Origin: Arthrobacter sp. HY1533
GTDB lineage: Bacteria; Actinomycetota; Actinomycetes; Actinomycetales; Micrococcaceae
NCBI RefSeq assembly: GCF_027568515.1
Contig: NZ_JANKZF010000001.1
Coordinates: forward strand, 496,001-560,000
DNA length: 64,000 nt
Direction: 5' to 3'
Shown here: piece after piece, positions 6,304 to 63,501 of the stretch
How positions within the stretch are numbered: position 1 is the first letter of the stretch
Layout of the letters: the number at the start of each line of letters is the position of its first letter
Position numbers and translations under genes: made by a program
The notes under the pieces: model-generated
What the model was told of the DNA's origin: nothing
The model's database searches: none
What the model saw: the letters and a program-made list of their open reading frames with translations, nothing else

Positions 6304-7109
6304 GGAGTGGGTGCTTTCCGTGGGTTGGTGCTGGTGCGGGAGGCGGCAACGAAACCAATGAAGCGGCCCTCCGCCTCGGCGTCGCGCATGGAGCGGCGGT
6401 GCGAGAAGAAGCGCGGGTCCTCCAGTGTGCAGATCCCTGACGGGATTGCCGTGGCCCCGGCGGCCCGCAGCTGGGCCAGCACGGCGGCCGGCAGGTCCAG
6501 GGCGGGCGTGCCCCAGGACGTTGTGGCGAAGGACTCAGGGACGCGTGCGGCCACGGCGGCACGCATGGGCTCGGGCACCTCGTAGCAGCGACCGCACACG
6601 CTCGGTCCCAGCACGGCCGAGATGTTCCCGGCCCCGGCCGCCTGCATGCGGGCGACAACGGCGGCAATGACACCCTTCTCAACCCCGGGGCGCCCGGCGT
6701 GGGCCACGGCCAGGACGGGCTCGCCGGAGGCGGTTTCCCCGGCCAGGACCACGGGCACGCAGTCGGCCACCATGACGGCCAGGCCGGCCGAGGTGCGCGT
6801 CTCCCCCACGGCGACCATGGCATCTGCCACCGGGTGGGGGCCGGCCGTTGGCACGCCGTCAACCGTGAAGCCGCCGTCAGTCAGCTCGGCCACAGCGTTG
6901 CCGTGGACCTGCTCCATGTAGGCGAGCCGCACGCCGTCGCCGGCATGTCGGGAAATTTCCGCGTCAACGCCGGCCCGGCGGCCCGTGACGGCTGCGGGGT
7001 CGTCACCAACGTGAAAGGCCAGGTTGCCTGCTGCGGCGTCGGTGAAGCCCGCCCAGATTCCGGGGCGGAGCTGTTCGGTGGACCACATGCAAAAAACCTG
7101 ACCATTCAT
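6300..7109 (-). CDS. pgeF: PgeF / YfiH multicopper-fold purine nucleoside phosphorylase-like protein
   Basis: Member of the family once called laccase-domain polyphenol oxidases; characterised members cleave or deaminate purine nucleosides, and E. coli PgeF edits peptidoglycan precursors. The zinc-site residues are visible in YMEQVHGNAVAEL (His), VMVADCVPVVLA (Cys) and AVAHAGRPGVEKGV (His), and the family segment GPSVCGRCYEVPEP is present. 269 residues from ATG 7109. An in-frame ATG at 7088 (MWSTEQLRPG) fits the usual N-terminus about as well. It follows ftsZ and overlaps yggS. A peptidoglycan-editing role would fit this location. Confidence 0.9.
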   Translation of the reverse strand: MNGQVFCMWSTEQLRPGIWAGFTDAAAGNLAFHVGDDPAAVTGRRAGVDAEISRHAGDGVRLAYMEQVHGNAVAELTDGGFTVDGVPTAGPHPVADAMVAVGETRTSAGLAVMVADCVPVVLAGETASGEPVLAVAHAGRPGVEKGVIAAVVARMQAAGAGNISAVLGPSVCGRCYEVPEPMRAAVAARVPESFATTSWGTPALDLPAAVLAQLRAAGATAIPSGICTLEDPRFFSHRRSMRDAEAEGRFIGFVAASRTSTNPRKAPTP

Positions 7110-7112
7110 GGT

Positions 7113-7134
7113 GCCGCCGGCTGTTGCCGGCGGC
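7113..7134. terminator. Short GC hairpin between ftsZ and pgeF
   Basis: gccgccggc (7113-7121) pairs with 7126-7134 across a four-base loop. No T tract follows. It may attenuate rather than end transcription from ftsZ into pgeF. Confidence 0.4.
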
Positions 7135-7146
7135 GGGTGTTGGTGC

Positions 7147-8319
7147 TTACTTCAGGAAGTCGGGGACGTCCAGGTCATCGGCACGGTGGCCGGTGAGGTC
7201 GGGCTCCACGATGGCCGGAAGCTCAACGTCGAAGCCGCCGTCCGCCGGAACCTGGGAGCCGGAGTTCTGGCCCCACTGGTTCAGGTTGGTGACGGATGCC
7301 CCTGCGGGGACGGCTGCCGGTGCCGGGGGCACGGAGGCGGCTGCTGCCGGTTCAGGCGCGGACTGCTCGGACTCGGGGGCGTCGAAGCCTGCTGCAATGA
7401 CCGTGACGCGGACCTCGTCGCCCAGGGCGTCGTCAATGACGGCACCGAAGATGATGTTGGCCTCGGGGTGGGCCACTTCCTGGACCAGGCGGGCAGCCTC
7501 GTTGATCTCGAACAGGCCCAGGTCGGAACCACCCTGAACGGACAGGAGGACGCCGTGGGCGCCGTCGATCGAGGCTTCCAGCAGCGGTGAGGCAATGGCC
7601 AGCTCGGCAGCCTTCACGGCACGGTCCTCGCCGCGGGCCGAACCGATGCCCATGAGTGCCGAGCCGGCACCCTGCATGACCGACTTGACGTCGGCAAAGT
7701 CCAGGTTGATCAGGCCGGGGGTGGTGATGAGGTCCGTGATGCCCTGGACGCCGGACAGCAGCACCTGGTCGGCGGAGCGGAAGGCATCCATGACAGAGAC
7801 GTTGCGGTCGCTGATGGAGAGCAGGCGGTCGTTGGGGATGACGATGAGCGTGTCAACCTCGTCGCGCAACGCCTCGATGCCGGTGTCGGCGCTTGTGGCG
7901 CGGCGGCGGCCCTCGAAGGTGAAGGGGCGGGTGACCACGCCAATGGTCAGGGCGCCCAGGGTGCGGGCAATGCGGGCCACGACGGGCGCGCCGCCGGTGC
8001 CGGTGCCGCCACCCTCGCCGGCGGTAACGAAGACCATGTCGGCCCCGCGCAGGACCTCCTCGATCTCCTCTGCGTGGTCCTCGGCAGCCTGGCGTCCCAC
8101 GTCGGGGTTGGCGCCGGCGCCGAGCCCGCGCGTCAATTCGCGGCCCACGTCGAGCTTGACGTCGGCGTCGCTCATCAACAGCGCCTGGGCGTCTGTGTTG
8201 ATGGCGATGAATTCGACGCCGCGCAGACCCACGTCAATCATGCGGTTCACTGCATTTACGCCGCCGCCGCCGATGCCGACGACTTTGATGACTGCCAAGT
8301 AATTCTGGGGTGCTGCCAC
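7147..8319 (-). CDS. ftsZ: Cell division GTPase FtsZ
   Basis: Tubulin-like GTPase that forms the Z ring. The open frame continues upstream to 8427, but the natural start is GTG 8319, giving (M)[19 protein letters not shown] with AAGGGA at good spacing upstream; this makes 390 residues. The GTP signature [14 protein letters not shown] is near residue 102, the T7-loop region is [11 protein letters not shown], and the last residues [10 protein letters not shown] are the conserved C-terminal peptide that binds SepF/FtsW-type partners. Normal length. It is the distal gene of the dcw cluster but has a 283-base upstream gap with a palindrome, so it probably has its own promoter. Confidence 0.97.
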
Positions 8320-8457
8320 GTTACGTGTCCCTTGCTCGTGTGTTGCTTCCAAGATCAAAAACTTTTTCCAGCTGTGCTGCCAAAATGACCGCCCCGCTTC
8401 ATGGTGCCGGCGTCGATCCTGGAACAACCCTGAAGTGGTGCTTGAAACTTTGTAGCT

Positions 8458-8490
8458 TAACCTTCAACTTGAAGGTTATAGTTATGTCAA
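8458..8490 (-). promoter_or_regulatory. ftsZ upstream region: 21-bp palindrome and TTGACA box
   Basis: taaccttcaa (8458-8467) and ttgaaggtta (8469-8478) form a perfect palindrome with a one-base centre. On the minus strand TTGACA (8490-8485) lies just upstream. The site is about 140 bases before the ftsZ start, in the only long gap of the mur-fts block. I infer a promoter or operator specific to ftsZ; the -10 is not clear. Confidence 0.55.
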
Positions 8491-8602
8491 CCAACTCTTG
8501 TCAGTGACGCTATGGTGCATCGGTGCCGCATGCAATTACCGCTGCCGCGTGTCGCGGCAATCCCGTAATAAATATCGCTGTTTTCCCCAGTGTGCCACCG
8601 TA

Positions 8603-9676
8603 TCACCGAGTGACGGGGTGCCGCGGCGCACTGACGTCGAACACCTGTGCGGGGACCGGTACCGGCTTGCCGGGCTCGGGCGTGGGCGGCGGCGCATTGA
8701 GCAGGGCCTGGAGCACCTGGGCCTTGAGCTCCATGTCGCTGGCATTGCCCCAGATGACGCTCCGGCCGTCTTCCAGCTTGAGTTCGACGGCGTCGGGAGA
8801 CTTGGCCGTGGCATTCGCCAGCTGCGCCAGGATGGCCTGCGGCAGGTTGGCCAACACGGCTGTCATGGCCACGAAGGTGTCCTGCCCAATGGCAGCCTTG
8901 CCACCGTCGATCAGCGGCAGCGCAACAGAGGCCGGATCCGCCGTGGATCCCAGTTGAACCCCGTCAGGGTCCACCAGCAGGTATTCCCCGCCGTTCTTGA
9001 GCAGGGCCACCGGGACGCGCTCCACAAGGTGGACCACAAGGGTCGACGGCGGCCGCGCCTCGATGCGCGCACCCTTGACCTGGATGACAGGTTCCAGCAG
9101 CGAGCTGACCTGCGCGCCTGTCACCTGCGGCAGCGGCTTGCCCATGACGGGGGCCAGCGCCTTGTTCAGGGTCTCAGGTGCCACGAGCTTGTTGCCCTCA
9201 AACACCACCGTCTTGACGGCCAGGGCCGGGGAAAAGAGAGCCACCGCCATGACAATCGCCAGCACGGCGGCCACGCCGGCCGCCGCCAGCAGCACGGTGC
9301 GCCTGCGGCGCTTGAATTCGGGCATGGGGAAGGCCAGCACCTGGGCGCCGACATCGGGACTGTTTTTTGCCGCCCCGGATTCCGGAACGCCTGCCTTCTT
9401 GCCGGCCGGCAACTTCCAGCGCGGCGCCTTGGACTCCTTGGGCTCCTTGGACTTGGCTTCCTTGGGCGCCTTGGCTTCCTTGGCCTTGGGCACGGCCGGG
9501 CCGGGGTCGCCGACGGGGACCACTGACACCTTTGAGCTGGTGGCAAGCACGGCGCCCGCCGGCTCCCCGGCCGGCACTGCCCCGGGTTCCACGGCGTCGG
9601 GCTCCGCCTTTGTCCCGGCGGGCGCGGCCGTGCCCGGCCGTGTCCTGATGACGCGCGGCCGGCGCGGCTCAGCCAT
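8603..9676 (-). CDS. ftsQ: Cell division protein FtsQ (POTRA domain)
   Basis: Bitopic membrane protein that links FtsB/FtsL to the septal synthase. I place the start at ATG 9676 ([15 protein letters not shown]), which overlaps the murC stop by eight bases; the frame runs further upstream to 9754 but inside murC. 357 residues. An unusually long Lys/Glu/Pro/Ala-rich cytoplasmic part of about 120 residues is followed by one transmembrane helix (VLLAAAGVAAVLAIVMAVAL), then the POTRA domain beginning VKTVVFEGNKLVAPETL and a beta domain. The C-terminus is Pro-rich. The cytoplasmic region contains KEAK/KEPK/KESK-like repeats typical of Micrococcales. Confidence 0.92.
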   Translation of the reverse strand: MAEPRRPRVIRTRPGTAAPAGTKAEPDAVEPGAVPAGEPAGAVLATSSKVSVVPVGDPGPAVPKAKEAKAPKEAKSKEPKESKAPRWKLPAGKKAGVPESGAAKNSPDVGAQVLAFPMPEFKRRRRTVLLAAAGVAAVLAIVMAVALFSPALAVKTVVFEGNKLVAPETLNKALAPVMGKPLPQVTGAQVSSLLEPVIQVKGARIEARPPSTLVVHLVERVPVALLKNGGEYLLVDPDGVQLGSTADPASVALPLIDGGKAAIGQDTFVAMTAVLANLPQAILAQLANATAKSPDAVELKLEDGRSVIWGNASDMELKAQVLQALLNAPPPTPEPGKPVPVPAQVFDVSAPRHPVTR

Positions 9677-50611: not shown

Positions 50612-53296
50612 ATGTGCGGAATCGCTGGTTATTACGGTTATGGAGAAGACGAATCTCTCCTTCAAGAGATGAACGCGTGCATTGTGCACCGCGGCCCCGA
50701 CGGTGAGGGCATCTACACTCACGGGAACGTGGGGCTGGCCCACCGCCGCCTCTCCATCATCGATGTTGCGCACGGCCAGGAGCCCATGTACAGCGCCGAC
50801 GGTGAAACCGTCCTGATCTACAACGGCGAGGTTTACAACTACCTTGACCTGCGCGCCGAGCTTGAGGCGCTGGGCCGGACCTTCTCCACGAAGTCGGACA
50901 CCGAAGTGGTGCTGCAGTCCTACGAGGAGTGGGGCGACGCCGCCTTTGACAAGTTCAACGGCATGTTTGGCTTTGCCATCCATGACAGGAAGAACAACCG
51001 CCTGGTCCTGGCCCGCGACCACTTCGGCATCAAGCCGCTGTACTACGCCACTGCAGGCACCGCCGAGGCCCCCACGCTGCTGTTCGGCTCGGAAATCAAG
51101 CCCCTGCTGGCCGCCAACAAGATTGAAACCGGCGTCAACGAGCGGATCCTGTACCGCTACCTGCAGTTCCGGATCCACGACGACGAATCCGGCACCTTCT
51201 TCAACGGCGTGCAGAAGCTCATGCCGGGCGAGAAGCTGGTGCTGAACACCGTTGACAGCGAAGCCGGCCCCGCCGGAACCTCCGTGATCAGCAGCTACAC
51301 GCGCTTCAAGGAAGAACTGGCCGAACTGGCCAAGATTGAAACCCCGTACTCCAAGGCCGTCATCGACGAATACCGGGAGCGTTTCACCGAGGGTGTCCGC
51401 CTGCGCCTGCAGTCCGAGGTCCCCGTGGGCACGGCCCTGTCCGGCGGACTGGACTCCTCCGCCGTCGTGGTGACCATCAACAAGCTCATGCAGGAGAAGG
51501 CAGCGGCCACCGATTCCCTCGGTGCCCAGCAGCAGACCTTCTCGGCAGTGTTCCCCAACTCGCTCAATGACGAGGAAAAGTACGCAGACGCCGTGCTGGC
51601 CCGCTGCGAAGGCAACGTCATCAGCCACAAGATCCGCCCGCAGGCCTCCGAATTCGTTGAGGACCTCGAGGACTTTGTGCGCACCATGGAGGAGCCCATC
51701 ATCTCCTCCGGTCCCTACGCCCAGTACCAGGTCATGCGCGAAGCATCCAAGCACGTCACGGTTCTCCTTGACGGCCAGGGCGCCGATGAGATGATGGCCG
51801 GCTACATCCCCTACTACTTCGCATACCTGCGCCAGTTGAAGAAGAACGGGCAGAACGCCAAGCTGGCCAAGGAACTGGTTTCCAGCTCCGACATCCTGTT
51901 CCGCCTGGCCCGGTTCCGCATCCAGGGCGCCCTGACCTTCAAGAAGGCTGCCGGGATCACCCCGCTGCTGAACAAGAAGTTCACGGCCAAGTTCAAGTCC
52001 GAGACGTTCTCCAACATCCCTGACAACCTGAAGCTGCGTCTCATCGACGACCTCTTCCACAAGTCCCTGCCGGCCGTGCTGCGCTACGAGGACAAGAACA
52101 CCATGCGCTTCTCCCTGGAGGGCCGCGTGCCGTTCCTGGACAAGGAAGTGGTGAAGTACCTCTTCAGCCTCTCTGACGAGTCCATCATCAAGGGCGGCTG
52201 GAACAAGCGCATCCTGCGCGACGCCACCCGCGAGCTGCTGCCGGAGATGATCAGCAACCGCCGCAACAAGATCGGCTTCACCACCCCCGAAGCCGAGTGG
52301 TTTGGCCTGATGAAGGAAAAGATCTACGAGATCTTCCTGTCCTCCTCCTTCGGCTCACGGCCCTACTGGAACCAGGACGCCGTGATCTACGCGTTCGAGG
52401 AATACCTCAGCGGCAAGTCCGCCGGATCCACCATGGTGTTCTGGCGCCTGATCAACACCGAGCTGTGGCTGCGCGAGTTCTTTGACCAGCCGGAAGTCAA
52501 GGCCGGCATCGAGGGCAAGAGCGACTACATCCCCAACGCCGACAAGAACCTGGACATCACTGTTCCGGACAACGCCGGCACCTTCCGCCGCTACCCGCTG
52601 CGCACTGAGGTTTTCTACAAGGAAACCGACTTTGACCCCGCAGTCATGACGTACGTCAAGCGCTACTTCGACGGGCTGCCCACTGCCGGCGGCGACCACG
52701 GCGAAGCCACCGCCAACACGCCGTGGTACCTGTTCGTCTCGGAGAAGATCGTGGCCATGACCCAGGGCCGTTCCATCCCGGTCTGGGACATCAAGGTCAG
52801 CAACGCGGCGCGCATCTTCAGCAAGTTCGTCACCCGCAACCCCGGCGGCATTGGCCTGGCCAGCCCCTGGTCCATGCAGTTGGCCATCGACGAGGTGGGC
52901 CTGCCCAAGATCATGTACGCCTCCGCACGCTCCGTGATTGGCAAGCTGCAGGGCAAGTCGGGCGTGTTCTATGAAGTGGTCGGCCACAACATCAACGCGA
53001 TCGACGGCGCTGCCGGCTACCAGGTGGGCACCTCCACCCACTCGGTGAAGTACGCACCCATCGACCCCGACGGCGTGGCAGCGCGCCTGAGCGCCCTGGT
53101 CCGGGCCACTGTCCCGGCCGAGTTCGCTGCGACGTTTGCCGGCACCGCGATCATGGATGCCAACGACCTTGGCGTTGTGGCGCTGGGCCACGACACTCCC
53201 CTGCCCAAGGCTGTCCTGGAGAACATCTTCCGCGACAACCCGCAGGGCCAGACCACCGAGACCACACCCATGTCCTTGGTGTTCACCCAGAAGTAG
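50612..53296 (+). CDS. asnB: Asparagine synthetase B fused to a CofE-like (F420-0:gamma-glutamyl ligase-type) domain
   Basis: 894 residues in one open frame; AsnB is usually 550-650. N-terminal class II glutaminase with Cys2 nucleophile (MCGIAGYYGYGEDES, HRGPDGEGI, LIYNGEVYNYLDLRAELE). The synthetase domain has the PPi loop ALSGGLDSSAVVV near residue 276, and continues to about 640 (MVFWRLINTELWLREFF). A linker leads to about 240 extra residues (657-894): RYPLRTEVFYKETD, WYLFVSEKIVAMTQGRSI, GGIGLASPWSMQLAIDEVGL, GHNINAIDGAAGYQV, AIMDANDLGVVALG, FRDNPQGQTTETTP. These resemble F420-0:gamma-glutamyl ligase (CofE) proteins from recollection of the family, not from a search. The fusion could amidate or glutamylate a substrate; the role is unknown. 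Confidence 0.85.
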   Translation: MCGIAGYYGYGEDESLLQEMNACIVHRGPDGEGIYTHGNVGLAHRRLSIIDVAHGQEPMYSADGETVLIYNGEVYNYLDLRAELEALGRTFSTKSDTEVVLQSYEEWGDAAFDKFNGMFGFAIHDRKNNRLVLARDHFGIKPLYYATAGTAEAPTLLFGSEIKPLLAANKIETGVNERILYRYLQFRIHDDESGTFFNGVQKLMPGEKLVLNTVDSEAGPAGTSVISSYTRFKEELAELAKIETPYSKAVIDEYRERFTEGVRLRLQSEVPVGTALSGGLDSSAVVVTINKLMQEKAAATDSLGAQQQTFSAVFPNSLNDEEKYADAVLARCEGNVISHKIRPQASEFVEDLEDFVRTMEEPIISSGPYAQYQVMREASKHVTVLLDGQGADEMMAGYIPYYFAYLRQLKKNGQNAKLAKELVSSSDILFRLARFRIQGALTFKKAAGITPLLNKKFTAKFKSETFSNIPDNLKLRLIDDLFHKSLPAVLRYEDKNTMRFSLEGRVPFLDKEVVKYLFSLSDESIIKGGWNKRILRDATRELLPEMISNRRNKIGFTTPEAEWFGLMKEKIYEIFLSSSFGSRPYWNQDAVIYAFEEYLSGKSAGSTMVFWRLINTELWLREFFDQPEVKAGIEGKSDYIPNADKNLDITVPDNAGTFRRYPLRTEVFYKETDFDPAVMTYVKRYFDGLPTAGGDHGEATANTPWYLFVSEKIVAMTQGRSIPVWDIKVSNAARIFSKFVTRNPGGIGLASPWSMQLAIDEVGLPKIMYASARSVIGKLQGKSGVFYEVVGHNINAIDGAAGYQVGTSTHSVKYAPIDPDGVAARLSALVRATVPAEFAATFAGTAIMDANDLGVVALGHDTPLPKAVLENIFRDNPQGQTTETTPMSLVFTQK

Positions 53297-55788: not shown

Positions 55789-56226
55789 CTATGCGTCGGC
55801 CTGGCCGAATTCGTTGATGAAGTTGTTGACGAGTGCTGCCGGTATCCGGGCAGATTCCGTGACCGTGCCGTTGGCGGCAGCCAGGTTGCGGGCCAGATCC
55901 GTGGCCCAGCTCAGTTCCAGTGCCACAAGTGCGACGCCGGCCCCGCCCGCCAAGTCCTGTGCGGCCTCTGTGGCGTCTTCTTCGCCCAGCAGGCCCGGCA
56001 GGGCCATGGTCAGGCCGGCTGCTGCTGCGTCACCGTCCGCCAGCTCTGAAATGCTGTACGAACCATCCGCCGCCCGGCTGGCCAGGACCATGTCCAGCAG
56101 CCGAACCGTGCCGGAGGCTTCAAGTTTCGCCAAGGAGTCCAGCACGCCGGGGCTGGGGGCAGCACCGGGGAATTCCACCGTGAAGATCTCCACGGGTCCG
56201 TAGTCAAAGTTTTCTCGCTCAGCCAT
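55789..56226 (-). CDS. DUF6325-family protein
   Basis: 145 residues of a small acidic cytoplasmic protein. Recognisable parts: NFDYGPVEIFTVEFPGAAPS, SGTVRLLDMVLASRAADGSY, VALVALELSWATDLARNLAA, ARIPAALVNNFINEF. I match it to DUF6325 (related to DUF1269 stress-associated membrane-binding proteins) from memory; no function is established. ATG 56226 overlaps the end of the DUF1254 gene by eight bases, and the SHOCT gene follows, giving a coupled three-gene string. Confidence 0.75.
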   Translation of the reverse strand: MAERENFDYGPVEIFTVEFPGAAPSPGVLDSLAKLEASGTVRLLDMVLASRAADGSYSISELADGDAAAAGLTMALPGLLGEEDATEAAQDLAGGAGVALVALELSWATDLARNLAAANGTVTESARIPAALVNNFINEFGQADA

Positions 56227-57178
56227 GATTCACCGTTACTTCGCTGTTGATGGAGGGGAACTGCCAAGCGCCGTCGAGGACTTCGGCACGGGGTCGGTAC
56301 AGCCGAACCAGGTAATTCCAGCCGTCCATGATCGGCAGTGCGTTGGGTTCGCCGGGCTCCCCGCCGAAGATCACTGTGATGCCGCCGTCGGCGTTGGGGG
56401 TTCCCGTGATGTTGTTGACGCTGTAGGCGCCGTCCGGGTTTTCTTCGAAGTAGCCTTCTGCGTTGTACAGCGAGATGGACCAGAATCCGTCCACGGGAAC
56501 CTCGGCAATGTCCAGGGTGTACCGGCCCACGTCCAAGCCCGGCACCACGTTGAGGTAGCTGGCCTCCGCCTCGGGCAGTCCGCCCCAACCTGCCGCGGTA
56601 CCGATCAGGTGGCGGATGGGGTCCACGTCCTGCTTCCTTCCGAAGCAGCCGTCCAGGCCGGCGAGCCCCTTGGCGAGCTCCAAAAGCGCGGCGCGGGTCG
56701 CGGTGACGGCTTCCTCGTCATAGGGCTCCAGCACAAATGGCCGGTTGCTTGCGCTCGAAAGCACCAATTGGTCCTGCAGGGCGTTGACCTGCGCCACGTC
56801 CTGCGGGTTCTCGGGGTCGACCAGGATGCGTGCGGCCACCATGACATAGTCGGTGCCGAACTCCGCCACGCTCAGGTGATGGCTGCCAGGGGTGTGAAAG
56901 ACCCGGTTGATGAAGTGGTCCTGGTTGACCACCATGACGGAGACATAGCGGTTGCCGACGTCAGGAATGGTCAGTTCCGCACCTTCCGAGATGTCAACGA
57001 CAGCTGCGCTGTAGAGGGTGTCCCGGTTCATCCGGATGATGGGCTGGTCTTCGACGGGAGTGGGAACCTTGCCGTGGCTCCATTCGCCCGTTCCGCCGGC
57101 CTGGTGCACGATCGCCGCAAACATGCGGTCGGATTCTGCCCTGGCAAAGTTTGCTGCGTTGACATGAATTTCAGTCAT
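56219..57178 (-). CDS. DUF1254/DUF1214 domain protein, short form
   Basis: 319 residues from the ATG at 57178 (MTEIHVNAANFARAESDRMF); the frame is open further upstream but lacks family similarity. N-terminal DUF1254 part has PIIRMNRDTLYSAAVVDISE and VSVMVVNQDHFINRVFHTPG. The C-terminal DUF1214 part has PVDGFWSISLYNAEGYFEEN, GAYSVNNITGTPNADGG and WNYLVRLYRPRAEVLDGAWQ. No signal peptide. DUF1254 proteins occur across bacteria without a confirmed activity. It is divergent from a second DUF1254 gene at 57383. Confidence 0.88.
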   Translation of the reverse strand: MTEIHVNAANFARAESDRMFAAIVHQAGGTGEWSHGKVPTPVEDQPIIRMNRDTLYSAAVVDISEGAELTIPDVGNRYVSVMVVNQDHFINRVFHTPGSHHLSVAEFGTDYVMVAARILVDPENPQDVAQVNALQDQLVLSSASNRPFVLEPYDEEAVTATRAALLELAKGLAGLDGCFGRKQDVDPIRHLIGTAAGWGGLPEAEASYLNVVPGLDVGRYTLDIAEVPVDGFWSISLYNAEGYFEENPDGAYSVNNITGTPNADGGITVIFGGEPGEPNALPIMDGWNYLVRLYRPRAEVLDGAWQFPSINSEVTVNHG

Positions 57179-57247
57179 GGGGCTCAAGTGCCTTTCGCTA
57201 GTCAAAAAAGTAACAAGCTCAGCCTTGCCGGAATCCTGACACCGGTC

Positions 57248-57269
57248 ATCATCATTGATTGATGATTTG
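57248..57269. promoter_or_regulatory. Putative operator, site A: ATCATCA-N5-TGATGAT-TTG
   Basis: atcatca (57248-57254) and tgatgat (57260-57266) flank ttgat, followed by ttg. It lies between the two divergent DUF1254 genes. The same arms, spacing and trailing TTG occur at 63559-63580. Confidence 0.65.
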
Positions 57270-57382
57270 GCCCCCCGGCAGCCCCCAACTTGATCAAATT
57301 CGTGGCCATGGGAACCGGCCTGTGGAACTCTCGGAAGAGGAAATTCCGCTCGGACTGTTCCCGCGCCTGACACAAGATAAGG

Positions 57383-58735
57383 ATGAAAATCCCCATGAAT
57401 TCTTTTGACTCTTCGGCCGTTCAAGCCGCCTACGCCTTGGGCATTCCCCTGGTGTTCAACCTCGACCAGGTGCTGCGGTACGTTGAAAGCGGTGTGGGTG
57501 CCAACCCCGCCGCCCCCTTCAATTCATTTAGCCACGCCCGCACGCTGGCCGGCCCCGCAGACACCTTTGTCTCCATCAACAACGACACCCTCTACTCCAT
57601 GGCCCAGCTGGACCTGAGCGCCGGCCCCCTGCTGCTGGAGGTGCCCGACACGGCCGGACGCTACTACGTGCTGCAATTCGTGGACGCCTGGACCAACAAC
57701 TTTGCCTACGTCGGCCAGCGCGCCACAGGCACCGGTGCGGGGAAATTCCTGATCGTCCCGCCAGGGTGGTCGGGCCAGGGACCCGAAGATGCAACGCTCA
57801 TCCAGTCCCCCACACTTGTCGCCTCGATTGTGGGCCGTTGGGCGTGCGAGGGTGAGGCCGACCTTCCCGGGATTCACCGCCTCCAGGACGCCACGAAGCT
57901 GTCCGCGCTCGACGGCGGGTCCCCCGCTGCGGGCATCCCCTCGCCCGGTCCTGAGGTGCCCGACAAGCTGGTTTTTCTGGAGAAGCTCCGTTTGTGGTCC
58001 CAGGCATTCCCGCCAGCCCAGCGGGACCTTTCGGCACTGGACGCCTTGGCACCGCTGGGCATCACCGGCCAGGGCAACAGCCCGTATGCGGGGCTGGACG
58101 AGGGGCGCATCGGCGAATTGGCCCAGGCGTTGCAGGGTGCCCAGGACATGATCCTGGAATTCCTTCGCGGCGGCGGGGTTCCCATGGTCAACGGCTGGCA
58201 GCTGGCATACCACTCCTTTGACTACAACCTGGACTTCTTCGAGGTTGGAACGCTCAATGAACCGCTGTACACCGCCATGGATTCTGCCCAGCGCCCCATT
58301 CTGCGGGCAGCGGCCGCCATTGCCGGTCTCTGGGGAAACCACGCCTACGAGGCCGCCTACGCAGCTGTCTATGTCGACGCCGACGGCCAGCAACTCAACG
58401 GCCAGAACGACTATGTCTTGACGTTTGACCCAACCCCGCCGGTGGGTGCCTTCTGGTCCCTGACCATGTACTCGGTCCCCGACTTCTTCCTGGTGGAGAA
58501 CCCGCTGGCCCGATACTCGGTGGGCGACCGAACCCCCGGCCTGGTCTACGGGGACGACGGTTCACTGCAAATCCACCTCGGCGCCACCGCCCCGAGTGAT
58601 CCAGCGAAACTGGCCAATTGGCTGCCCGCACCTGAGGGTGATTTCCGTCCGCTCCTGCGCATGTATGTGCCGGATGCAGCCGTGATCGACGGCGGCTACC
58701 AGATCCCCGCCATCCACCGAATCGCAAAGGACTAA
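57383..58735 (+). CDS. DUF1254/DUF1214 domain protein, long form
   Basis: 450 residues. N-terminal DUF1254 domain: AYALGIPLVFNLDQVLRYVE, FVSINNDTLYSMAQLDLSAG, YYVLQFVDAWTNNFAYVGQR. Middle helical region with PDKLVFLEKLRLWSQAFPP. C-terminal DUF1214 domain: GAFWSLTMYSVPDFFLVENP, ARYSVGDRTPGLVYGDDGS, LLRMYVPDAAVIDGGYQIP. No signal peptide. ATG 57383 is possible, but AAGGA is better spaced for ATG 57395. The HerA-like gene starts four bases after its stop. The shorter DUF1254 gene is divergent from it. Confidence 0.88.
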   Translation: MKIPMNSFDSSAVQAAYALGIPLVFNLDQVLRYVESGVGANPAAPFNSFSHARTLAGPADTFVSINNDTLYSMAQLDLSAGPLLLEVPDTAGRYYVLQFVDAWTNNFAYVGQRATGTGAGKFLIVPPGWSGQGPEDATLIQSPTLVASIVGRWACEGEADLPGIHRLQDATKLSALDGGSPAAGIPSPGPEVPDKLVFLEKLRLWSQAFPPAQRDLSALDALAPLGITGQGNSPYAGLDEGRIGELAQALQGAQDMILEFLRGGGVPMVNGWQLAYHSFDYNLDFFEVGTLNEPLYTAMDSAQRPILRAAAAIAGLWGNHAYEAAYAAVYVDADGQQLNGQNDYVLTFDPTPPVGAFWSLTMYSVPDFFLVENPLARYSVGDRTPGLVYGDDGSLQIHLGATAPSDPAKLANWLPAPEGDFRPLLRMYVPDAAVIDGGYQIPAIHRIAKD

Positions 58736-59851: not shown

Positions 59852-62464
59852 TCAGGGGCGAAGCCGGATGGCGTCCCTGCGCGTGCTCACACCCAATTTT
59901 CGGTAGATGGAGCGCTGGTGGGTCCGCACCGTGTTGACGGAGACAAATAGCGTGGCGGCAATTTCCTCGGCCGTCATGGTGGTGCGCAGGAAGCCAAAGA
60001 CCTCCTGCTCCCGCTTGGAAAGCTGTGTTCCCAACATGGCTTGCCTGGAGATGTTGTCAGGGCCCTGGGCAAGCCTTGCGGCAAGGAATCCTTCATGTGC
60101 AGTTCCCCAGGCCGCGTGCTCGGTAAGAAGCTGGACCAGGGCGTCATCGCCTCCGGCGAAGGGCCGCACAATGGATTCCTTCATGGCAAGGTCCAGGGCC
60201 TTTTCCAGCTGGCGGTGCGCAGCATCCCCCTCCCCCCTCCCCCTTGAAATCACGGCGGAGGTAATGAGGGCACTGACGGATACATAAGAAGTCATGGCGG
60301 TTGAAGAAATGCCGCCGAGCATCTGCAGCGCATCGGCCGGGCGCCCCGCAAGCCGGGCGAGTTCCGCGGCAAGTGCCAGGCACACCGGGACATGGGCAAC
60401 ATCCCGGATATCCCGGACCATCTCAAATGCGGCATCGGGCTCCCCCGAAGCCGCACGCAGGCTGGCCGCGGCAATGAGCCCATAGATGGGCCATGGAACC
60501 CCGTGCTGGTGGGACTGGCTAACGCCATCCAGACGGGATTCGGCTGCGCGGATATCGCTCGCATCACCTGTGTCGGCGGCACAGAAGGCCAGGAAGACCC
60601 TGGCCAGGGCCGTGTAGGAGGCCTGGTGTCCACCCTGCGCCACCATGTCCAGGAAGGTCTGGTTCGCCTCGGGCAGCCTTCCTTGCCAATAATCGGCGAA
60701 ACCTCGGGCAAAGTGCTCAATGGCGCCGTCATAGTGGTTCCATTCCAGAACCGTGGCATCCTGTCCGGGCACCTCATACTTGGCCATGAGCGCACGTGCC
60801 GAGGAAAAGTACCCGCCGAAGCTCAATGCCAGCATCAAGTTGGCACGGGCTCGTTGGGCGAGGGTGTGCAGCCCGGAATTCTCGGCCTGGTCCAGGGCCG
60901 AGCGGAGCATGCGCACTGCGGCGGCCGGATTGCGCCGGAGCCGCAGTTCCGTCCACCCCAGGAAGAACATGGCGAAGGCATTTGTCACCGGGTTGCCCTG
61001 CAGCTCGGCGCTATGCTCCCGGGCCGAGTCCACGGCGATGGCGAGTGCACCGGCGTCGTTCTCTGTGAAAAGCGTGGCAAAGGCCAGGGTGGCGCGGACT
61101 TGGTGCGGCACCACGTCCATGGCGGACAATGCTCCGCGGGCCTGCAAACGCAAAAGGGTGGAACCCGGGGCATCGCCCAAGAGGTCAAGGCATGCCGAGC
61201 GTATCAGCAGGATTTCAGGGTTCAAGGCAACGTCACCGGGGAGCTGCAACAATATGTCGTTGAGCTCTGCGGCACCGGATTCAATCACGATCCGCAGCCA
61301 TTGCTCCCGCAGAATTCCCATCAGCGCCTCGGCATCCCCGGCCAGCAGTGCATGGGACATGGCGTCCATGGGGAACAACCGGGCCAGTGCCTGGGCTGCA
61401 ATGGCATTGAGCCGGCGCCGCCGGCCACTGTCCGTGCGGTCCAGGATCTGCTGGCATTGGGTGGAAAATTCCTGGCGCCACTTGTAGACGGTCCGATGTT
61501 CCCCGCTCTCATAGCGGTCAAGGAAGATTCCTTGGTTGGCGCATTCTTCCAGCAGTGCCGAGCTGTTTCCCGCTCCCGTCAGGAGGTGCGCCAATGTCGC
61601 GTCCAGCCGCAGGCAGGTTGTGCCGGCCAGGACAAATTCAGCCAATTCCGGTCTCATTTGGCCCAGGATGGACGTTGCCACGAATTCGGTCAGCACGGAA
61701 TGGCCAACGGGCCCGGTACCTCCGGAACCTGGCGAGCCAGCAACAATTTCCAGCTGAACTGCTATGGGCCAGCCACCGTTTTCATTGTGGAGTGAATGCG
61801 CGGCCTCCTCCGACAGCGCAATGCCTGCCCGGTGGAAGTCCTCCACGATCTCCGCCACCGTCAGGGACAATTCTGCCGGCCCCAGGCGGGTGGCAATTCC
61901 ACGCGCCAGCATCCGGTTAAAGGACTGGTTCAGCTCGGCGGTGCCCGCCAGCACAAAGCGGAGACGGTTTTGGCAGTGGTCGGTGAGCGTCTGCAGCAAG
62001 GCGCTGGACAGGGTGGAACCGCCCAGGTGTGCGTCGTCCACAACCATGACAATGGGCTCGTCCAGCTCCAGCAGACGGCTGGCCACGAGCTCAAGGGTTG
62101 CCTGCGTTCCCTGGTCATCAGGAAATATTCGGGACAGCAGGTGTGCATCGTTCGCGCCAAGCCGGGGTGCCAGGCGATGAAGGGAACTGATGATCCCGCC
62201 CAGAAGGGACTCTTCATTTTCGCCGATGTGCCGGCTCAGGCTGAGCCAGGCAACACGCCGTCCCTCGGCCACGGCCCAGGTGGACAGCAAAGCGGTTTTT
62301 GCGTAGCCGGATGGAGCGGACAGCAACGTCAGTGGGTACAGGTCCACCGACTCGTCAATGAGCCGCAGCAGCCGTTCCCTTGACCTTGCCGGGCCGCCAT
62401 TGTTCGGCGGCGATACCAGAAACCAGGGCAGCGGTTTCCATTGTGCAATTTCTCGTGTCCCCAT
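59852..62464 (-). CDS. Large ATP-binding LuxR-family regulator (LAL/MalT type)
   Basis: 870 residues from ATG 62464 (MGTREIAQWKPLPWFLV); the frame upstream lies within the preceding gene. N-terminal STAND ATPase: Walker A variant LSAPSGYAKTALLSTWAV (Ala where Gly is usual before Lys-Thr), Walker B EPIVMVVDDAHLGGS. A long TPR-like helical middle follows. The C-terminal LuxR helix-turn-helix reads LSKREQEVFGFLRTTMTAEE, then IAATLFVSVNTVRTHQRSIY and RKLGVSTRRDAIRLR. LAL proteins are activators switched by a small inducer. It lies between the two divergent regions that share a palindrome. Confidence 0.93.
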   Translation of the reverse strand: MGTREIAQWKPLPWFLVSPPNNGGPARSRERLLRLIDESVDLYPLTLLSAPSGYAKTALLSTWAVAEGRRVAWLSLSRHIGENEESLLGGIISSLHRLAPRLGANDAHLLSRIFPDDQGTQATLELVASRLLELDEPIVMVVDDAHLGGSTLSSALLQTLTDHCQNRLRFVLAGTAELNQSFNRMLARGIATRLGPAELSLTVAEIVEDFHRAGIALSEEAAHSLHNENGGWPIAVQLEIVAGSPGSGGTGPVGHSVLTEFVATSILGQMRPELAEFVLAGTTCLRLDATLAHLLTGAGNSSALLEECANQGIFLDRYESGEHRTVYKWRQEFSTQCQQILDRTDSGRRRRLNAIAAQALARLFPMDAMSHALLAGDAEALMGILREQWLRIVIESGAAELNDILLQLPGDVALNPEILLIRSACLDLLGDAPGSTLLRLQARGALSAMDVVPHQVRATLAFATLFTENDAGALAIAVDSAREHSAELQGNPVTNAFAMFFLGWTELRLRRNPAAAVRMLRSALDQAENSGLHTLAQRARANLMLALSFGGYFSSARALMAKYEVPGQDATVLEWNHYDGAIEHFARGFADYWQGRLPEANQTFLDMVAQGGHQASYTALARVFLAFCAADTGDASDIRAAESRLDGVSQSHQHGVPWPIYGLIAAASLRAASGEPDAAFEMVRDIRDVAHVPVCLALAAELARLAGRPADALQMLGGISSTAMTSYVSVSALITSAVISRGRGEGDAAHRQLEKALDLAMKESIVRPFAGGDDALVQLLTEHAAWGTAHEGFLAARLAQGPDNISRQAMLGTQLSKREQEVFGFLRTTMTAEEIAATLFVSVNTVRTHQRSIYRKLGVSTRRDAIRLRP

Positions 62465-62496
62465 GCAGGGGATTCTATCGTCACCCGCGGCTACTT

Positions 62497-63501
62497 TTAG
62501 GGACCATTGGGGCGCAAGTGCCAACCGGGGTCATGACGTCCCTCGACGTCCGGATCGACCCCAGCCGTCCGGACGCAACGGAAGCCTGTGTCCGATGAAG
62601 CAGAGTCTTCAGCCCTCCCCATGCGGGCCGCGGGCCGGTAGCTCAGGCTGTGTTCGGGTGCGGAAAGATGCGATCCGCCCTTGAGAACACGCCGCGGGAT
62701 GCCGTCCGCACCTTCGGAGCTGCCGACCCGGGACGGAACAGCCACGGGAGATTCGTAGGGGGCAATCCCCGCGGCCGCCGCATGGGAGCTGGTGTACAGA
62801 TCGTCGGTCCATTCCCACACGTTGCCAATGCTGTCGTACAGCTCGAATCCGTTGGGCGGAAACATCCCCACGGGGGACGTGCCAAACCATCCGTCGGAGC
62901 TCGAGTTCAGGTAGGGGAACCGGCCGTGCCAGGTATTGGCCAACGCCACCCCGTCCGGATCACGCTCCCGCCCCCAGCTGTAGGGCAGGGGCGCGTGCCC
63001 GCCGCTGGCTGCCCATTCGTACTCCGCTTCGGTGGGCAGCCGGGCCCCGATCCACTGTGCGTAGGCCAGGGCATCAGGGTAGGCGATGTGGACAACCGGG
63101 TGCTCATCCAGCCCCAACAAGGCACTGCCGGGCCCCAGGGGATGCCGCCAGTTGGCCCCGGGCACCCAGGACCACCAGCTCCGCCAGTCCCTCAGGTCCA
63201 CCGGGCCGTCGGGTGGGGTGAACACCAATGATCCTGGATCCAGTTCTTCGATTCCCCGCAGTGGAAAATCCTGCCGGTCCAATCCCCGCTCTGCCAGGGT
63301 CACGTAGCCGGTGGCAGCGGCAAACGCCGCATACTGGGCGTTCGTGACAGGTGTCCGGGACATGTCAAAGGCCTCGACGGCGCGCTGGTGCTGGGGCCGT
63401 TCATCGGGATAAAAGTCCCACGACCCCATCAGAAAACGGCCAGGGGGAATCCTTACCCAGTCGGCCAGGGATTCCTGCATGGCAGGTTTCCTTCCGTTCA
63501 T
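62497..63501 (-). CDS. FGE/SUMF1-fold protein lacking the catalytic cysteines
   Basis: 334 residues. Family features: WVRIPPGRFLMGSWDFYPDE, HQRAVEAFDMSRTPVTNAQY, HPVVHIAYPDALAYAQWIG, RLPTEAEYEWAASGG, NGFELYDSIGNVWEWTDDLY, VLKGGSHLSAPEHSLSYRPA, SDTGFRCVR. In active formylglycine-generating enzymes the GGS segment reads SYLCHDSYCNRY-like with two copper-binding cysteines; here both positions are Ser. It therefore cannot be a standard FGE and may be a lectin-like or non-oxidising member. ATG 63501 follows AAAGGAG. 32 bases before the LAL gene; probably co-transcribed. Confidence 0.9.
   Translation of the reverse strand: MNGRKPAMQESLADWVRIPPGRFLMGSWDFYPDERPQHQRAVEAFDMSRTPVTNAQYAAFAAATGYVTLAERGLDRQDFPLRGIEELDPGSLVFTPPDGPVDLRDWRSWWSWVPGANWRHPLGPGSALLGLDEHPVVHIAYPDALAYAQWIGARLPTEAEYEWAASGGHAPLPYSWGRERDPDGVALANTWHGRFPYLNSSSDGWFGTSPVGMFPPNGFELYDSIGNVWEWTDDLYTSSHAAAAGIAPYESPVAVPSRVGSSEGADGIPRRVLKGGSHLSAPEHSLSYRPAARMGRAEDSASSDTGFRCVRTAGVDPDVEGRHDPGWHLRPNGP

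Follow-up and report, generated by a model that had tools for sequence, protein, structure and literature searches.

A fused AsnB-type amidotransferase and CofE-like ligase conserved within its genus, a possible two-step enzyme of a cell-envelope precursor

In this study, a gene in the window (the whole 64,000-nucleotide stretch of DNA that was analysed) was found to join an AsnB-type amidotransferase to an amide ligase of the CofE superfamily in one frame (Table 1); the fusion is real, under selection and probably old. Both domains are identified, their active-site signatures are conserved, and the two halves are inherited together and held under purifying selection. The substrate would differ from aspartate and F420 because determinants for both appear to be missing, and a precursor of the cell envelope is our tentative candidate. 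The profiles in usual use would label the fused gene as asparagine synthase and the solo members of the family as F420 ligases, and both names look wrong on substrate. An enzyme that forms amides in two steps and is conserved across several phyla, for which no described product was found, points to a new metabolite or wall modification; finding it is made feasible by the fusion, with one gene to delete and two active sites that can be killed separately. The CofE superfamily is also widened past F420 and folate. No description of an AsnB/CofE-like pairing was recognised in the available portions of the open-access literature searched, and we know of no family member with a tested activity.

Table 1. 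Positions of the fused gene, its domains and motifs, and the adjacent acetyltransferase gene in the window
Feature	Position	Strand	Remark
AsnB/CofE-like fusion gene	50612..53296	+	894 aa, single frame
Cys2, expected glutaminase nucleophile once Met is removed	50615..50617	+	aligns with E. coli AsnB Cys1
N-terminal Ntn glutamine amidotransferase domain, residues ~1-200	50612..51211	+	Pfam GATase_7 at 44-167; outer limit approximate
Asn_synthase-type ATP-pyrophosphatase/synthetase domain, residues 253-621	51368..52474	+	PF00733, E 9.8e-64
SGGLDSS loop	residues 277-283	+	inside the Asn_synthase-type domain
Acceptor-site motif DGQGADE, residues 387-393	51770..51790	+	SGEGSDE in E. coli and human asparagine synthetases
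CofE-superfamily amide-ligase domain, residues 647-894	52550..53293	+	structural match to CofE from about residue 656
SEKIVAMTQGR, residues 710-720	52739..52771	+	counterpart in F420 ligases: SKIVSKAEGR
MDANDLG, residues 848-854	53153..53173	+	Asp849 aligns with the invariant Asp of the F420-ligase D(T)xGR motif
GNAT acetyltransferase, 232 aa	53385..54083	+	PF00583, 2.8e-12; mere neighbour, outside any conserved unit

The original prediction that the AsnB and CofE-like parts lie in one gene was borne out, as they are fused and open in all 22 other genomes of the same genus; among the 58 genomes compared, own included, the fusion was also present in 2 of 13 from other genera of the family and in 1 of 22 additional genomes from the order. 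The dN/dS values against 13 same-genus loci were 0.04-0.16 for the AsnB half and 0.02-0.14 for the ligase half, and two loci from farther out in the family gave 0.20-0.36. Neither half is drifting, and the ligase tail is constrained about as strongly as the AsnB half. No record in the plasmid collection spans 80% of the fusion.

Across the phylum, the ligase domain was detected in 18 of 296 genomes, own included, and an AsnB of at least 500 bits in four (the window genome, G096, G292 and G108). A CofE-like partner is fused or adjacent in all four, and the next-best AsnB of the sample scored 297 bits; the dedicated AsnB therefore goes with a CofE-like ligase. Among the 18 genomes with the ligase domain, 13 lack both an AsnB at 500 bits and any fused piece, and G119 (62% complete) carries a fused piece at a contig end (L022), yet is absent from the AsnB matches. 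A contig scan, in which the best 80 of at least 392 related stretches were examined, yielded 33 AsnB-fused loci, one with AsnB adjacent (L097), one with the halves in different frames (L064) and 45 in which no AsnB was called in the examined DNA, which is short in some loci. Among these best 80, fused forms occur in Actinomycetota, Dormibacterota, Chloroflexota and Bacillota, and solo forms in Clostridia, Bacteroidota, Patescibacteria, Armatimonadota, Thermotogota and others. The 45 solo loci and the 13 phylum genomes indicate that the halves are not obligate partners. Thirty genomes from the 45 solo loci were searched, and 18 contained an AsnB-like match at E ≤ 0.001; the best reached 244 bits and none came near 500 bits, so the solo ligases do not go with the fusion-type AsnB. 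The ligase family thus also occurs without the dedicated AsnB. Other arrangements were observed as well: in L030 and L033, the CofE-like domain is C-terminal in frames of 589 and 508 residues with a long repeat-like N-terminal part that looks TPR-like by eye, and in L027, L028 and L031, one gene type lies within 61 bases after the CofE-like gene, matching a class III aminotransferase (Pfam) in L027.

In a quick tree of 58 AsnB proteins, 24 fused and two adjacent-gene AsnBs formed one clade (SH-aLRT 97). Fused rows fell in two places of the ligase tree, with the window's clade apart from the large fused clade, and the ligase of G292, from the same phylum, paired with a Thermoleophilia ligase; a tree constrained to one fused clade was not rejected (p-AU 0.164). 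The AsnB tree joins all the linked forms whereas the ligase tree does not, and we are unsure of a single origin of the linked form because L017 and other branches are long.

The AsnB half is complete, as had been claimed, with Cys2 and the PP-loop present in the window and invariant across the 26 aligned fused proteins (L017 lies outside that set). The fusion retains the Cys1 and PP-loop of E. coli AsnB, and its acceptor-site motif reads DGQGADE where that enzyme has SGEGSDE. Alignments with both enzymes place Gln389 of the window at E. coli Glu348 and human Glu364, and Gln occupies this position in 26 of 26 aligned fused proteins; human asparagine synthetase E364Q is inactive according to the available text of PMC6748925, and the name asparagine synthetase given in the original prediction was dropped on these grounds. 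The window position aligned with Asp384 of the E. coli aspartate site has no Asp, in a gapped part of the alignment. Profile searches of the window genome detected GatB, did not find AsnA and gave nothing over the cut-off for asparaginyl-tRNA synthetase, which is the pattern expected where asparagine is made on tRNA; the genome therefore need not make free asparagine via the fusion. Asparagine as the product was rejected, given that the aspartate-site Glu is replaced by Gln and that free asparagine synthesis by this route is not required. The residue at the Glu348 position also varies by AsnB clade, with SGEG in L185-L187 (presumably LtsA-like, given that L185 has cytochrome oxidase genes as neighbours), SGQG in L166-type proteins and DGQG, and it may aid the sorting of AsnB annotations by substrate class.

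The proposed kinship of the C-terminal part with CofE held. The window domain scored 17.9 bits against PF01996, below the curated 25, gave no NCBIfam match at E ≤ 0.01 as a single sequence and had no useful phmmer match in the PDB. In the family alignment (73 rows, comprising 72 of the 80 loci and the window), all 73 members matched PF01996 at E ≤ 0.01 (best 3.2e-20), 70 of 73 matched TIGR01916 at the same threshold (best 3.7e-11), and the C-terminal domain has the CofE fold. It was the family profile together with the fold that established the kinship.

The family was further compared with 20 FbiB-type sequences, obtained from 25 fetched loci after five without the search motif were left out. 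The hhalign comparison gave a probability of 93.7% (E 1.9e-7) and aligned just 44 N-terminal columns, and a global run had low confidence elsewhere; the motif comparison therefore rests on a MAFFT alignment. In that alignment, the K-V-xxxGR element, a DPD-type motif and the invariant Asp are common to both groups, and the family has SEK for SK, VA for VS and QGR for EGR. The GRPWR-type segment that follows the D(T)xGR Asp in F420 ligases and a subsequent block of about 22 residues in FbiB-type proteins are without counterpart in the family. Residues G153-C155 of A. fulgidus CofE touch the F420 ring, as described in the accessible part of PMC10861534, and a 9-column gap lies at their presumed place, the numbering being carried from the PDB alignment by inference. 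The F420-contact segment thus appears to be missing from the ligase half.

TIGR01916 at its cut-off of 180.65 bits matched 53 of 60 genomes of the class and had no match in the window genome; the best CofH score there was 33.9 bits against a cut-off of 374.1, and the sole CofD-type match is YvcK, situated between rapZ and whiA. By the TIGR01916, CofH and CofD searches, the window genome shows no F420 pathway. The label F420-0:gamma-glutamyl ligase was consequently abandoned and the F420 reading rejected, as the pathway genes were not found in these searches and the F420 determinants appear to have no counterpart in the alignment.

On the basis of these features, we propose a cytosolic, bifunctional amidotransferase/amino-acid ligase of a cell-envelope precursor, a reading to which we give slightly less than even confidence. 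The AsnB half would release ammonia from glutamine, adenylate a carboxylate other than that of aspartate and convert it into a carboxamide, and the CofE-like half would form an acyl phosphate with the help of divalent metals and a nucleotide, which is GTP in CofE, and join an amino acid by an amide bond. The two halves would work on one metabolite or on successive products, thereby giving an amidated, amino-acid-extended acceptor, which would most likely be a precursor of a cell-envelope polymer, with the peptidoglycan stem peptide as the leading guess. We infer both catalytic activities and, above all, the envelope precursor as acceptor. The complete AsnB half, the CofE fold, the dedicated AsnB clade, the low dN/dS, the Gln in place of the aspartate-site Glu, the failure to find F420 determinants or pathway genes and the envelope-gene context together suggest this function, and relatives of AsnB amidate peptidoglycan (available text of PMC8554201) and surface uronic acids (available text of PMC7468200). 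Counted against the envelope reading are the mostly unrelated neighbours, the lack of a recurring gene, the position of the AsnB outside the mycobacterial LtsA-like clade and the finding that the halves are not obligate partners. A narrower version, which we consider quite unlikely, is an enzyme for the D-Glu alpha-carboxyl or an equivalent wall carboxylate, to which the CofE-like half would add an amino acid that the AsnB half would then amidate. We know of no enzyme for the D-Glu alpha-carboxyl substitutions. Glycine occupies this carboxyl in Intrasporangium calvum (PMC3035309), and glycine or D-serine does so in other Gram-positives (PMC11555704), according to the accessible parts of these sources.

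The fused gene stands mostly alone, and most fused loci have unrelated neighbours. Neighbour clustering of 93 loci gave an ABC-transporter-like cluster as the commonest (11 of 93), and most others reflect gene order shared by close kin; a conserved operon was rejected because no gene recurs with the family. A same-strand gene lies within 100 bases in 16 of the 40 fused loci called, and three of these 16 neighbours, two of them in sister lineages, are cell-wall genes (12 of the 16 were assigned by Pfam, and L044, L055, L058 and L087 were judged by eye). The split pair of G292 (locus L191) is flanked by yggT and divIVA, in a cluster that also contains sepF and ftsZ, and L097, from the same single lineage, covers the divIVA end of that cluster. 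Alanine racemase (alr) overlaps the fused gene by 4 bases in L088 and L091 (Dormibacterota, sister lineages), the fused gene lies 18 bases before a peptidoglycan transglycosylase gene in L072, and a dapA-type gene adjoins it in L017. Solo ligases lie 7 bases before murJ (L115) or adjoin a LysM/M23 peptidase (L095), a glmS-type gene (L107) or sugar-transfer ATP-grasp genes (L094, L104 and L108). The annotated neighbours were picked for closeness or by eye and have no background rate, so the envelope context is a hint and not a test.

The window's own neighbours give no hint of function. The original prediction had linked the downstream acetyltransferase to the pathway, and this link was not retained: the GNAT gene accompanies the fusion in 7 of 13 other same-genus loci, most of which have flanks of about 1.5 kb; the longer loci L015, L016, L017 and L019 did not yield it, and in L018 an M3 peptidase gene stands between the two. 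An acetylated product was rejected because the GNAT neighbourhood is not conserved. An M3-family peptidase gene is directly downstream of the fused gene in L016 (3167-5179) and L018 (10021-12069); no such gene occupies that place in the window. Further along the window, two divergent genes with overlapping starts (56219-58735; 401 and 450 aa) have no NCBIfam match and presumably resemble DUF1254/DUF1214 proteins, and an 890-aa MalT-like regulator with a LuxR-type C-terminus (59852-62524) scored 148 bits with NF003420, under its cut-off.

The enzyme may alternatively modify a surface glycan, the AsnB half producing a uronamide and the ligase joining an amino acid to a wall-polymer uronic acid. 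Among the nearest unlinked AsnBs with the DGQG motif, two (L155/L189 and L157/L190) adjoin glycosyltransferase or sugar-epimerase genes, and solo CofE-like genes of Clostridia (L094, L104 and L108) touch or overlap a sugar-transfer ATP-grasp gene (PF14397). Moreover, WbpS makes a uronamide (PMC7468200), and the CofE-like qimC belongs to a wall-modification operon of Streptococcus pyogenes (PMC13059722), as the available portions of these papers describe. However, no glycan cluster was seen in the fused-gene contexts examined (sets of 5 and 15 loci), and we regard this role as unlikely.

A soluble pathway to an amidated, amino-acid-extended small molecule, such as an osmolyte or storage peptide resembling N-acetylglutaminylglutamine amide, lies near the suggestion of the original prediction and seems rather improbable. 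A self-contained enzyme would be expected to stand alone, as the fused gene mostly does, and the AsnBs of L166, L170 and others, which we take to be the N-acetylglutaminylglutamine amidotransferase clade, also have Gln at the Glu348 position (SGQGADE). Nevertheless, the fused AsnBs belong to another clade than these presumed amidotransferases, TIGR03104 scored 322.6 bits against a cut-off of 570.1, and the acetyltransferase is not conserved nearby.

Locus L017 (G045, 6859-9543) keeps one open 894-residue frame with a degenerate AsnB half and an intact CofE-like half. Cys2 (replaced by Ser), the PP-loop and the HRGPD motif are gone from its AsnB half, which shares 27.5% identity with that of the window over 575 residues; the ligase half, with its signatures intact, is 49.4% identical over 233 residues. 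A ligase half can therefore persist without AsnB catalysis while the AsnB remnant is still open and full-length. This locus and the commonness of solo ligases (45 in the best 80 of at least 392) would suit an AsnB half that acts as an ammonia supplier or scaffold with the ligase as the sole synthetase, which is compatible with the other readings; the invariance of Cys2 and the PP-loop in the 26 aligned fused proteins, L017 aside, makes it very unlikely. An ordinary asparagine synthetase whose CofE-like tail is degenerate or regulatory, consistent with the TIGR01536 match of the fused protein above its cut-off, is highly improbable given the Gln where the human enzyme needs Glu (available text of PMC6748925), a tail about as constrained as the AsnB half, and the tail kept in L017 where the AsnB half has decayed.

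The proposed envelope-precursor enzyme can be compared with several known systems. The N-terminal domain of CofE/FbiB (PF01996, TIGR01916) carries SK/VS/EGR where the fusion domain has SEK/VA/QGR, and the fusion domain is without the GRPWR-type segment and the stretch of about 22 residues, in a genome where no F420 pathway was found. A folate role seems unlikely in Patescibacteria, which carry solo family members. The chlamydial FolC2 (CT611) is a CofE homologue that works on a different acceptor and can substitute for folC in E. coli, according to the accessible text of PMC1971073, and, unlike the fusion, it is a separate gene in a folate cluster. The presumed N-acetylglutaminylglutamine amidotransferase clade (TIGR03104) shares the Gln at the Glu348 position, and no fused CofE-type ligase was seen in it. 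The WbpS-type uronamide synthases are AsnB relatives that act on envelope sugars (available text of PMC7468200), and the fusion scores 361.2 bits against 816.9 with their profile (eps_aminotran_1, TIGR03108). The LtsA-like L185-L187 form a separate clade from the fusion in an AsnB tree that includes no proven LtsA, and they keep SGEG. Peptidoglycan amidotransferases of the LtsA type likewise combine an Ntn glutaminase with an ATP-pyrophosphatase and act on a carboxylate other than that of aspartate, namely that of mDAP, as described in the available part of PMC8554201.
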